Position numbers and translations under genes: made by a program. A stretch of DNA of 64,000 nt from an uncultured bacterium (GTDB lineage Bacteria > Bacteroidota > Bacteroidia > Bacteroidales > Bacteroidaceae): positions 17,794-81,793 of the forward strand of contig CAJMMQ010000012.1 in NCBI GenBank assembly GCA_905214625.1. Direction: 5' to 3'. The notes below the pieces were generated by a model. That model was not told where the DNA came from. It searched no databases and saw nothing but the letters and a program-made list of their open reading frames with translations. Below are positions 13,974 to 45,422 of the stretch, piece by piece; the stretch's first letter is position 1, and each line of letters opens with the position of its first letter.

Positions 13974-13981
13974 TTTATACA

Positions 13982-14238
13982 GGAGTTAAAGTAGTTAAAG
14001 TAGTTATCGCCCACTGCGTGGGCTAAGTAGTTAAAGTCATTAGTATGTAACTTTATTACAACGTTATTTGCGTGTGCCGATAGGCAGCAATACTTCAGGC
14101 CGCAACAGACATAACGCGACAACATACACTTGTATAAGCAAATGGTATGCAACAATAATATTTATAGCAAATAGCATATTTAATCAAAAAAGCATATGGC
14201 TTTAACTACTATAACTACTTTAACTTCTCTAACTACCT
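13982..14238. repeat. 9-bp-repeat inverted element, copy A
   Basis: The left arm (13982-14038) contains tandem AGTTAAAGT units interrupted by a mini-hairpin GCCCAC-TGC-GTGGGC. The right arm (about 14199-14236) is the inverted form (TTTAACTACTATAACTACTTTAAC in two pieces). About 160 bp of AT-rich non-coding DNA lies between. It starts directly after the apt stop and ends about 8 bp before the second parS. Confidence 0.7.
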
Positions 14239-24255: not shown

Positions 24256-24457
24256 GAGGAGTTAAAGGAGTTAGAGCAGTTAAAGTAGTTAAAGTCATAT
24301 GCTTTGAGAATAAAAGAAAGTATATACCTTTCAGTAAAAAAAATTAGAGGAGTTAACGTAGCCAAAAGTCTTTAAATAAGGTCTTGACAGGCAAATAAAC
24401 AGCCGCAAGACATTCGACTTTAACTACTTTAACTCCTCTAACTATTTTAACTACTTA
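24256..24457. repeat. 9-bp-repeat inverted element, copy B
   Basis: The left arm starts 8 bp after the preceding stop (GAGTTAAAGGAGTTAGAGCAG..., ending GTTAAAGTCATATGCTTT). The right arm (24414-24457) is the inverse (GACTTTAACTACTTTAACTCC...). The intervening 110 bp is AT-rich and non-coding. It lies between convergent genes. Confidence 0.7.
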
Positions 24458-27556: not shown

Positions 27557-27582
27557 ATTTTAAGAGCAAAAGAGGCTTGAAA

Positions 27583-27768
27583 GAGTAGTTAAAGGAGTTA
27601 AAGCAGTTACCGCTCCCTGTGGTCGCTCAGGAGTTAAAGTCAAATGCCTTTAAACCTGCGCACCATAAGAACATTAACTGCATAGGCTCTGCTCAACAGG
27701 CAAGGCTAATGACTTTAACTACCAGCAGGCCCAAGCCTGCGATAACTCCTTTAACTACTCTAACTACA
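27583..27768. repeat. 9-bp-repeat inverted element, copy C
   Basis: The left arm has GTAGTTAAAGGAGTTAAAGC, then an insert beginning CCGCTCCC, then GGAGTTAAAGTCAAATGC. The right arm (27715-27768) is inverted and carries its own mini-hairpin GCAGG-CCCAA-GCCTGC. It sits between ychF and lgt, directly downstream of the ychF stop. Confidence 0.7.
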
Positions 27769-28658: not shown

Positions 28659-28714
28659 AAAAACCGGAAAAATAGGGAAATTTTGCGTAAATTTCCTTAT
28701 TTTTCCGGTTTTTT
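28659..28714. terminator. Hairpin upstream of fic / after lgt (twin 1)
   Basis: Arms at 28659-28683 and 28688-28712 pair almost fully (AAACCGGAAAAATA... with ...TATTTTTCCGGTTT) around a GCG centre and end in a T-run. The central 41 bp recurs after the Fic gene with a single difference. It could act as a terminator on both strands. Confidence 0.65.
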
Positions 28715-30155: not shown

Positions 30156-30206
30156 AAACGGAAAAATAGGGAAACTTTGCGTAAATTTCCTTATTTTTCC
30201 GTTTCT
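30156..30206. terminator. Hairpin after fic (twin 2)
   Basis: Starts three bases after the Fic stop. Its core, from GGAAAAATAGGGAAAC to TTATTTTTCC, matches the hairpin at 28659 over 41 bp with one mismatch. It probably terminates fic and, read the other way, the minus-strand GNAT gene that ends at 30243. Confidence 0.65.
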
Positions 30207-42401: not shown

Positions 42402-45400
42402 ATGGAATACAATTTCAGAGAGATTGAGAAGAAATGGCAGAAACAGTGGGCCGAGATGAAGACCTACCAGGTTACTGAAGACAAGAGCAGAGAGAAATTC
42501 TATGTGCTCAACATGTTTCCTTATCCATCGGGAGCAGGACTGCACGTGGGACATCCGCTGGGATACATAGCCAGCGACATCTACGCCCGCTACAAGAGGC
42601 TGATGGGATATAACGTGCTCAACCCCATGGGATACGACGCCTACGGACTGCCCGCCGAGCAGTATGCCATACAGACAGGACAGCATCCGGCCATAACTAC
42701 GGCCGAAAACATAAGCAGATACCGCAGCCAGCTGGACAAGATAGGATTCTCGTTCGACTGGAACCGCGAGGTGCGCACTTGCGAGCCTAAATATTATAAA
42801 TGGACGCAATGGGCATTCCAGAAGATGTTCAACTCGTTCTACTGCAACACTTGCCAAAAGGCACAGCCCATAGAGAAGCTCATAGAGCACTTCAGCCAGA
42901 AGGGCACCGAGGGCCTCGACGTGGCACAGAGCGAGGAGCTGAGCTTCACGGCAGCCGAATGGAACGCCATGAGCGAGAAGGAGCAGCAGCAAGTGCTGAT
43001 GAACTACCGCATAGCCTATCTGGGCGAGACGATGGTTAACTGGTGCGCCGGACTGGGCACCGTGCTTGCCAACGACGAGGTGGTAGACGGCGTGAGCGTG
43101 CGCGGCGGCTATCCCGTGGTGCAGAAGAAGATGATGCAGTGGTGTCTGCGCGTAAGCGCCTATGCACAGCGCCTGCTCGACGGACTCGACACGGTTGACT
43201 GGACGGAGTCGCTCAAGGAGACTCAGCGCAACTGGATCGGCCGCTCTGAAGGAACAGAGATGGAGTTTGAAGTGAAGAGTGATGAGCGAAGAACGAAGAA
43301 TTCAAATGACTCGTCACAAGAGAATTCTTCACTCTCCACTCTTAACTCTTCGTTTAAATTTACCATCTTCACAACCCGTGCCGACACAATATTCGGCGTA
43401 ACATTCATGGTGCTGGCGCCCGAAAGCGAACTTGTAGAGAAACTTACCACACCTGAGCAGAAGGCTGAGGTGGACGCATATATAGAGAAAACAAAGAAGC
43501 GCACCGAGCGCGAGCGCATAAGCGACCGTTCTGTTACGGGCGTGTTCTCGGGCTCTTACGCCATCAACCCGTTCACGGGCGAGAACATTCCTATCTGGAT
43601 TTCTGACTATGTGCTGGCCGGATACGGTACGGGAGCCATTATGGCTGTGCCTGCACACGACTCGCGCGACTATGCCTTCGCCAAGCACTTCGGACTGGAG
43701 ATACGTCCGCTCATCGAAGGCTGCGACGTAAGCGAGGAGAGCTTCGACGCCAAGGAGGGCACAGTGTGCAACTCGCCTAAGAGCGGAGTGGAGACTCTCG
43801 ACGGATTCTCGCTCAACGGCCTGAGCGTAAAGGAGGCCATAAAGAAGACCAAGGAATTTGTAACTTCTCACAACATGGGCCGCGTGAAGGTGAACTACCG
43901 TCTGCGCGACGCCATATTCTCACGCCAGCGCTACTGGGGCGAGCCGTTCCCGGTTTACTATAAAGACGGCATGCCGTACATGATTTCAGAAGACAAGCTG
44001 CCGCTCGAGCTGCCCGAGATAGACCAGTATAAGCCAACCGAGACAGGCGAGCCGCCGCTCGGACACGCAAAAAAATGGGCTTGGGACACAGAGAAGAACG
44101 AGGTTGTAGACAAGAGTCTGATAGACAACAAGACCGTGTTCCCGCTCGAACTTAACACCATGCCGGGCTTTGCAGGCTCATCGGCCTACTATCTGCGCTA
44201 CATGGACCCGCACAACGACAACGCCCTCGTGGGCGAGGAGGCCGACCGCTACTGGCAGAACGTTGACCTGTATGTGGGCGGAACAGAGCACGCCACAGGC
44301 CACCTTATATACTCACGCTTCTGGAACAAGTTCCTGTTCGACCTCGGAGTGTCGTGCCAGGAGGAGCCTTACAAGAAGCTCGTAAACCAGGGAATGATTC
44401 AGGGACGTTCTAACTTCGTGTATAGGATAGCAGCCCCCACCAACTCCCCCGGTGGGGGAGAGCCAGTTTCCTTTGACGGCACAGGCAACAGCGAAAAATC
44501 AACCAACAATACAAGCTCAAGCTCCCCCACGGGGGGAGTTGAGGGGGCTGCTCCCGTATTCGTCTCCTACGGACTGAAAGACCAGTATGACGTAACGCCC
44601 ATACACGTTGACGTAAACATCGTTCACGGCGACGTGCTCGACACAGAAGCCTTCAAGGCATGGCGCCCCGAATACAACGACGCCGAGTTCGTACTCGAAG
44701 ACGGCAAATATGTATGCGGCTGGGCAATAGAGAAGATGTCTAAGTCGATGTTCAACGTTGTCAACCCCGACATGATTGTAGAAAAATACGGAGCCGACAC
44801 GCTGCGCCTCTACGAGATGTTCCTCGGCCCGGTTGAGCAGAGCAAGCCTTGGGACACCAACGGCATTGACGGCTGCCACCGCTTCCTGAAGAAGTTCTGG
44901 GCACTGTTCTACGACCAGCGCACCGGCGAGTTCCTGCCCGACCGTAGCGAACCTACGCCTGAGCAGTATAAGTCTGTCCACAAGCTCATCAAGAAGGTTA
45001 CGCAGGACATCGAGCAGTTCAGCTACAACACCAGCATTTCAGCCTTCATGATTTGCGTCAACGAGCTGCATCAGCTCAAATGCCACAACGAGGCCCTGCT
45101 CACCGATGTTGTCGGCCTTATAGCACCGTTCGCGCCGCACATTGCCGAAGAATTGTGGCACGCACTGGGCAACAGTGGCAGCGTGTTTGACGCATGCTGG
45201 CCAGAATACAACGAGAAATACCTCGTTGAGAGCACCGTGCAGATGGGTATAGCCTTCAACGGCAAGCGCCGCTTCGAGATGCAGTTTGCCGCCGATGCCG
45301 ACAACGCAGCAGTTGAGCAGGCCGTAATGGCCGAACCAAGGACGGCAAAATACACCGACGGAAAGCAGATTGTAAAGGTTATCATCGTGCCGAAAAGAAT

Positions 45401-45422
45401 GGTAAACGTGGTTGTGAAATAA
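42402..45422 (+). CDS. leuS: Leucyl-tRNA synthetase with two in-frame palindromic insertions
   Basis: 1006 residues, about 60-70 longer than I expect for Bacteroidales LeuRS. Class I signatures are intact: HVGHPLGY (HIGH) near residue 48 and KMSKS at 778-782. The CP1 editing domain contains [12 protein letters not shown]. The extra length falls in two low-complexity blocks encoded by palindromic DNA: residues about 290-318 in the editing domain and about 677-717 after NFVYRI. Both keep frame, and conserved sequence resumes exactly after each ([32 protein letters not shown]). The enzyme charges tRNA-Leu and is essential, so it is presumably functional with both inserts. Confidence 0.97.
43269..43355. 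repeat. Palindromic insertion 1 inside leuS
   Basis: The left arm (GAAGAGTGATGAGCGAAG... ending GAAGAATTC) and the right arm (GAATTCTTCACTCTCC... ending AACTCTTC) pair at about 24 of 30 positions. It encodes a Ser/Asn-rich stretch ([13 protein letters not shown]...) within the CP1 editing domain and adds roughly 28 residues. Confidence 0.75.
44429..44552. repeat. Palindromic insertion 2 inside leuS
   Basis: Arms at 44429-44460 and 44522-44552 are inverted copies with about two differences. Each arm itself contains a hairpin (CTCCCCC-GGT-GGGGGAG). The 61-bp centre encodes [18 protein letters not shown]. The translated insert begins and ends with Ala-Ala (677-678 and 716-717). Confidence 0.85.

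Follow-up and report, generated by a model that had tools for sequence, protein, structure and literature searches.

How does a GC-rich palindrome come to lie in frame within the gene for an essential aminoacyl-tRNA synthetase, and what kind of element is it? The gene in question is leuS, which forms a single open frame in the 64,000-nucleotide stretch of bacterial DNA analysed here (the window); its product, a leucyl-tRNA synthetase (LeuRS) of 1006 amino acids, scores above the NCBIfam leuS_bact equivalog cut-off. An earlier note on this DNA had described an in-frame palindromic insertion with hairpin arms inside leuS, and this was borne out: one open frame runs through a 124-nt palindrome of 60% GC, at what we call site B, and each arm is itself a hairpin (Table 1). 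The description was incomplete, however, as leuS contains a further palindrome that belongs to another family, and several details needed adjustment. The hairpin-bearing arms do pair, but with a small bulge rather than as perfect 31-bp repeats (22/31 match when ungapped); the element is open in the leuS frame as described, but so are four of its six frames in all; and the addition of about 40 residues corresponds to a 42-residue segment that replaces nine native residues, for a net gain of 33.

Table 1. Positions, within the window, of leuS, its two palindromic inserts and the flanks of site B
Feature	Position	Strand	Description
leuS	42402..45422	+	HIGH-type motif HVGH at codons 48-51 and KMSKS at codons 778-782, both intact
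Second palindromic insert, site A	43267..43358	+	AT-rich (38% GC), in frame, where the editing domain begins
5' flank of site B	44418..44429	+	Codons 673-676; 5/12 nt differ from X. rarus, 1/12 from G002
GC-rich palindromic element, site B	44429..44552	+	In frame; replaces the loop NSDDHSKKP
Left arm of site B element	44429..44460	+	Contains the hairpin CTCCCCC-GGT-GGGGGAG
Interior of site B element	44461..44521	+	61 nt, without nuclease
Right arm of site B element	44522..44552	+	Contains the 17-mer GGGGGAGTTGAGGGGGC
3' flank of site B	44553..44570	+	Codons 718-723; 9/18 nt differ from X. rarus, 3/18 from G002

As RNA, the palindrome and five further bases (44429-44557) have a predicted minimum free energy of -71.3 kcal/mol (z -7.0), and none of 200 shuffled sequences was as stable. 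The arm-hairpin pattern, with up to two mismatches allowed, matches three times in the window, each time inside the site B element. A search of Rfam returned two microRNA matches, one for each leuS palindrome, both far below the gathering scores, and we took them as chance. Elsewhere in the window are palindromes of other kinds. Units of the AGTTAAAGTAGTTAAAG type make up three long AT-rich inverted repeats, another palindromic family, at 13978-14234, 24256-24456 and 27582-27767, outside any stop-to-stop frame of at least 110 codons, and near-copies of a strong hairpin (GGAAAAATAGGGAAA..) lie at 28659-28713 and 30156-30204, each in a minus-strand stop-to-stop frame of about 137 codons.

Alignment of LeuRS with its relatives set the boundaries of the insert. 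The window is from a Xylanibacter rarus-like bacterium. The closest GTDB relative found, X. rarus itself (L001), has a leuS that is empty at both sites and, with the insert regions set aside, differs from that of the window at 129 of 2712 nt. At site B it retains the native loop where the window has the 42-residue segment, and the corresponding interval measures 105 nt in X. rarus and 204 nt in the window (net +99 nt). The same site B insert is present in P0001 (two contigs; outside the sites it matches the window at 879 of 881 residues) and in P0002, which is from another source (866/881); because both carry it, an assembly artefact is an unlikely origin of the window's insert. The site B palindrome is confirmed as real, in frame and recent. 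Nor is the insert an ancient loop of all Bacteroidales LeuRS, the circumstance that the earlier note had named as fatal to its proposal: by the alignments, X. rarus is empty and arm-type peptides occur at site B in only two (L002, L003) of the 76 GTDB loci in which the site could be read, from a set of 80 leuS loci kept out of 595 candidates.

The distribution of filled and empty alleles was surveyed in the best 120 of 7999 LeuRS matches, many of them near-identical, which were sorted by pattern. Both sites are empty in 89 of these 120 (one-letter loop variants included), and 19 have an AT-rich palindrome at site A with site B empty. A domain of the DUF559 family occupies site A together with the GC palindrome at site B in six and with site B empty in one (P0009); two have both palindromes, AT-rich at A and GC at B (P0001 and P0008), one has the GC palindrome at B with A empty (P0002), and in two site A is unreadable and B is empty. 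Presence and absence are therefore polymorphic at both sites among these best 120 matches, and the sets of inserts differ even among P0009, P0010, P0033 and P0002, all of which match the window with 98-99% identity outside the sites. Among 30 further leuS loci, short GC-arm peptides occur at A or B in several species, and G292 has DUF559 at site A.

The insert at site A of the window takes the place of the AGQDWD found in the empty X. rarus allele, and it is of another family than the site B palindrome. The window and P0008 share 26 of its 28 residues despite LeuRS sequences that are 88% identical elsewhere; this AT-rich palindrome may thus cross species too.

Site A also holds forms that bear on the site B element. 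In close relatives of the window, a DUF559 nuclease is found at leuS site A within the arm peptides of the site B element (APSNSPRGGE...); in P0009 and P0003, specifically, the insert begins APS(N/T)SPRGGE and these same arm peptides surround the nuclease. By eye, the first and last codons of the site B interior (GGEPVS.., ..SSP) are like the inner ends of the site A DUF559 elements (GGEQVS.., ..ANQSSP). At site B itself, none of the 237 DUF559 domains among the matches listed lies just after FVYR; because of this, we infer the descent of the window element from a nuclease-bearing one from its arms and inner ends. P0003 shares 41 of the 42 insert residues with the window and 776 of 880 elsewhere, which suggests transfer, although not decisively; the DUF559 domains of P0003 and P0009 are 88% identical, no more alike than the P0003 and window LeuRS are outside the sites (88%). 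Two further LeuRS sequences, P0129 and P0137, contain DUF559 twice, once at site A and again ahead of the TMPG motif.

These forms also bear on whether a mobile element is needed at all, since two hypervariable leuS loops might simply accumulate repeats by slippage and ordinary variation in loop length. The lengths of loops A and B do vary in many species, and the P0003 insert has interior tandem duplications, but slippage cannot yield GC hairpin arms that match each other, 17-mers shared exactly by unrelated genes (see below) or the nuclease-bearing forms at site A, and we consider this explanation scarcely credible.

Resemblance to DUF559 elements extends to the arms at the nucleotide level. 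The window's left arm aligns with an arm of the L132 DUF559 element, which lies inside a helicase gene, with a score of 21, and its right arm aligns with an L128 arm with a score of 20; the highest score among 20 shuffled right arms was 14. A profile search with Pfam DUF559 in 201 genomes of the same family (Bacteroidaceae) gave matches in 69, with up to eight per genome. Loci were fetched for the best and the long-frame matches (74 loci, 71 with tblastn hits), giving a set of 71 DUF559 genes of distinct protein sequence, one of them a fragment and one with a stop. Hairpin-containing terminal inverted repeats with a score of at least 15 flank 45 of the 71, and the same test on leuS flanks found them in 0 of 78 (of the 80 leuS loci). 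The median inverted-repeat score is 22 for an element's own arms and 9 for cross-pairs (95th percentile 16). The association has exceptions, as 26 of the 71 genes score below 15 and the element's own right arm is its best partner in only 25 of 71. At the protein level, arm-like peptides lie to the left of 173 and to the right of 219 of the 237 DUF559 domains among the matches listed, as counted with a loose pattern and without a background control.

The window element has the terminal inverted repeats of this family, of the type with an AG[A/C]CCC box and a GC hairpin; between its arms, in place of DUF559, is the 61-nt interior, so that it is at most a short derivative of a DUF559 palindromic element. 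The earlier note had likened its arms to intergenic Bacteroidetes repeats. Arm sequences do occur elsewhere in Bacteroidales, but membership in the DUF559-element family appears to explain the site B insert better than a stray intergenic repeat does. An exact search of 249 genomes with the right-arm 17-mer gave five matches in four of them: one at another place in X. rarus, others at site B of leuS in three more genomes, and one in G002, in frame within a 518-aa open reading frame for a ferredoxin-like sequence (named by eye). So few matches mean that, within these genomes, the right-arm repeat does not have a high copy number. The arm-hairpin pattern was matched in two of six genomes.

Five residues, E28, D56, E67, D69 and H73, are invariant in 62 DUF559 sequences, and we take them to be catalytic. 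The DUF559 profile matches PDB 3hrl (4.9e-28) and PDB 3r3p, which is called a mobile intron protein (E 3.5e-8) and is, we presume, the homing endonuclease I-Bth0305I. Judged by sequence, the long form combines homology to a proven homing endonuclease with retention of the catalytic residues. The nuclease is also under purifying selection in host reading frames. Its pN/pS is 0.125-0.42 in eight of nine pairs, which overlap in members, and the ninth pair (L137/L138) is identical; values are near that of the host in several pairs and higher in L119/L135, L122/L130 and, slightly, L126/L128. We quote pN/pS alone, as dS is saturated in most pairs. In the published record, a passage of PMC9403480 calls a DUF559 gene a member of the EDxHD family and cites Taylor 2011 on I-Bth0305I, a passage of PMC3943268 describes EDxHD enzymes, and one in PMC12907096 links a Vsr-like DUF559 protein of Caulobacter to DNA damage.

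LeuRS is one of many proteins in which DUF559 is embedded. Open frames of at least 215 aa contain 31 of the 121 DUF559 matches of at least 85 bits (maximum 918 aa; one with an internal stop). PF05635, a multi-copy family searched in 101 genomes, was at first suspected of a similar life style; with 0 of 93 matches in frames of that size (maximum 180 aa), it became the negative control (Fisher P 3.4e-9). The long DUF559 frames listed number 34, and with four repeats of others and the one with a stop set aside, 29 were scanned; counts by host include species pairs and are not independent events. In 12 of the 29, at least 50 residues extend beyond DUF559 on both sides, and the hosts are SpoIID (three), sugar epimerases/dehydratases (five), DegT aminotransferase (two), a UvrD-type helicase and MiaB; in seven of these 12, the SpoIID, Radical_SAM (MiaB), Polysacc_synt_C or DegT domain is matched in at least two stretches. 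DUF559 precedes the host domain in 13 of 29 (guanylate kinase in six, Iso_dh in three, the aconitase family in two, YgbB and a short-chain dehydrogenase) and is at the C-terminal end in four of 29 (GcpE in two, phosphoglycerate mutase in one, and one, L133, without a listed host domain). The guanylate kinase loci with DUF559 fused in frame ahead are L116, L120, L123, L125, L127 and L136. Database matches of the P0009 and L132 inserts (120 of 186 listed for each) add ValRS, PriA and RecG as hosts, and from Pfam accessions we take the CCA-adding enzyme, PurL, GH31, UDP-GlcNAc 2-epimerase and adenine deaminase to be further ones. The NCBIfam models of ValRS, PurL, PriA, RecG and MiaB match in at least two stretches, with the nuclease outside the best stretch. 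In P0335 and other RecG proteins, including those of several named flavobacteria, DUF559 immediately precedes the TATPIPRT helicase motif, in what looks like a stably inherited form; some of these RecG-DUF559 proteins are annotated merely as DUF559 domain-containing protein.

Is the extra segment kept in the finished protein? It could be removed before it matters, as an intein, by RNA excision or by ribosome bypass across the hairpin, and the strong predicted fold of the mRNA as well as the existence of inteins with homing nucleases lend this idea some appeal. Against it, none of the hosts scanned has an intein or Hint domain listed by Pfam or NCBIfam; the LeuRS inserts end in ..GGVEGA, without the splicing domain and junction residues of an intein; and the inserts scanned keep the frame and are without stops. 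In addition, at least 74 of 84 DUF559 inserts at LeuRS site A (many of them near-identical) have no Met before the catalytic Asp; this count is restricted to LeuRS, as host codons blur the start-codon count over all DUF559 loci. As DUF559 at LeuRS site A usually lacks a separate ATG start, the nuclease is probably produced as a domain of the host protein; initiation at the host's own start codon is the simple interpretation, with GTG or TTG starts possible as well. A nuclease that is conserved in the host frame and mostly lacks its own Met start is probably translated there, and we regard removal of the insert as very improbable.

Site B is between two predicted beta strands in a variable region before KMSKS. 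Aligned to Thermus LeuRS, site A maps to the beginning of the editing domain, and site B to the interval from Thermus residue 583 to residue 632, presumably the leucine-specific domain. In the AlphaFold model of the window LeuRS (mean pLDDT 66.5, with the cores of both inserts below 50), which was used for loop placement alone, the inserts are predicted to be low-confidence loops between strand pairs 283-291/319-324 and 671-676/719-721. In the model of P0009 (mean pLDDT 63.6), few alignment rows include the nuclease, and it is poorly modelled.

If these elements move by homing, what traces has this left? The flanks of site B look like a putative co-conversion tract. Compared with X. rarus at the gene-wide rate, they show an excess of differences (P 1.5e-4 for the 12 nt and 4e-8 for the 18 nt, for flanks chosen after seeing the alignment), and they are closer to the flanks of G002, which carries a site B element and is overall four times more distant from the window than X. 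rarus is (532/2709). Other carriers of the site B element vary: G486 is similar to the window, as G002 is (two and four differences, 6/30, with 4/30 for G002), and G292 (four and five, 9/30) and G209 (five and six, 11/30) are not. Among the DUF559 elements, L137 and L138 lie in DegT genes of two genomes, and their nucleases are identical in hosts with a pS of 0.34. Identity between them stays at 92-100% over the interval from about -480 to +600 nt relative to the element and falls to mostly 55-87% outside it, apart from a patch of 98-100% at +720 to +840. In the nine same-site pairs profiled, an identity peak on the element is clear in this pair only and weak in L120/L127; it is absent in L121/L129, L118/L134, L126/L128 and L120/L123, where the element is no more alike than the host, and L105/L106, L101/L103 and L101/L110 are uniformly alike throughout.

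Clustering by site can likewise be read in two ways. The nearest DUF559 neighbour is at the same host site for 100 of 110 sequences, where 100 shuffles gave a mean of 15.4 and a maximum of 28; the underlying set comprises 172 of 308 sequences, below 90% identity to one another and gathered by similarity to two queries. Such clustering fits site-tied homing, but it can also reflect vertical descent, which is likely for the flavobacterial RecG. Copies fetched from 17 genomes gave no sign of recent duplication to a different site in the same genome, the closest pair being 87.6% identical; of two pairs at 100%, one was a single place fetched twice and the other came from two contigs with identical flanks. 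Taken together, the support that sequences give to homing of the long form is indirect and mixed.

A passive origin also has to be weighed: the palindrome could be MITE- or REP-like and moved in trans by an unrelated transposase, with DUF559 a passenger, or a defence or repair nuclease that came to lie between repeats by chance. The arm, a short box plus a GC hairpin, does resemble REP/RAYT ends, and the majority of the leuS palindromes seen are without nuclease. Against this, DUF559 recurs within matching inverted repeats in the 45 of 71 genes described above, is under purifying selection in host frames, is related to a homing endonuclease and clusters by site. We consider a passive palindrome unlikely.

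The explanation that we favour, and think probable, is that the window insert is a short, nuclease-less member (non-autonomous or decayed) of a family of palindromic mobile elements of Bacteroidota, and that it is translated in place. Each end of such an element is a terminal inverted repeat with an AG[A/C]CCC.. box, a spacer and a GC-rich hairpin, having few stop codons and therefore readable as a Pro/Gly/Ser-rich linker; in the long form, a Vsr-like, EDxHD-type DUF559 endonuclease lies between the ends, probably as a domain inside the host protein. We propose that the nuclease cuts an element-free allele at or near the loop-coding site, and that repair of the break copies the element and some flank from an occupied allele, sometimes that of another species. 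The native loop would thereby be lost and the flanks co-converted, an outcome whose signature is seen in some cases. In essential genes, only in-frame insertions in tolerant loops would be expected to survive, and these are predicted to be translated and not spliced; the open frames are consistent with this. Finally, internal deletion would produce short palindromes that persist and spread between species by recombination, as the shared arms and inner ends suggest. In the window, leuS would then hold a short GC-rich element of this kind together with an AT-rich palindrome from a separate family. More tentatively, we put forward as a possibility that Bacteroidota harbour widespread unspliced homing elements in which a Vsr-like endonuclease sits between hairpin arms that double as peptide linkers. 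Such elements would be translated as an extra domain in essential enzymes (LeuRS, ValRS, PriA, RecG, PurL, MiaB and others), would rely on the host gene both to be expressed and to avoid being lost, and would shed short palindromes.

These proposals have consequences beyond leuS. To our knowledge, the in-frame palindromic elements in essential genes of Rickettsia have been known for decades with no identified mobility enzyme; if the proposal is true, in-frame palindromic elements gain a nuclease partner, which may explain the spread of in-gene elements. Essential enzymes would, on this view, be able to carry a folded nuclease domain without splicing it out, which would affect annotation, as in the naming of RecG-DUF559 proteins, and ideas on how proteins gain loops and domains. 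Given nuclease-bearing forms at another leuS site, and filled and empty alleles in near-identical strains, movement, tolerance and dependence on the nuclease are directly testable.

How does this element compare with known systems? The passages retrieved from the literature searched (subscription papers and preprints lay outside its scope) contain no description of a class of DUF559 palindromic elements, and none of the papers found there to contain DUF559 appears to deal with palindromic elements; a passage of PMC4755523 mentions a Prevotella repeat named PINSR. The likeness in kind to Rickettsia palindromic elements (RPEs) that the earlier note had pointed out stands: a passage of PMC10969869 describes RPEs as palindromic, about 150 bp or less and in frame in protein-coding genes, and the window element, too, is a short palindrome in frame in a coding gene. 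This is a likeness of outcome. RPEs are from another phylum, and the RPE passages of PMC10969869 name no nuclease-bearing form; unlike them, the window element replaces a native loop, its flanks look co-converted and a nuclease-bearing form occurs in the same gene. REP/RAYT systems and prokaryotic MITEs are similar in having a gene or spacer between inverted hairpin repeats and short, gene-less derivatives, but here the nuclease is DUF559 rather than a Y1 transposase and the copies lie in coding frames; no target-site duplication was noticed by eye in alignments of filled and empty alleles, in which loops are replaced and boundaries blurred. Like inteins with homing endonuclease domains, these elements place a nuclease in frame in housekeeping genes, but they have no listed splicing (Hint) domain, and their ends are Pro/Gly-rich arm peptides. 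They are also like I-Bth0305I, an EDxHD/Vsr-like enzyme, in the DUF559 profile match to 3r3p, in some co-conversion and in site-tied clustering. Unlike in EDxHD homing endonucleases, no intron or intein was seen, and DUF559 appears instead as an in-frame domain of the host protein, set between palindromic arms.
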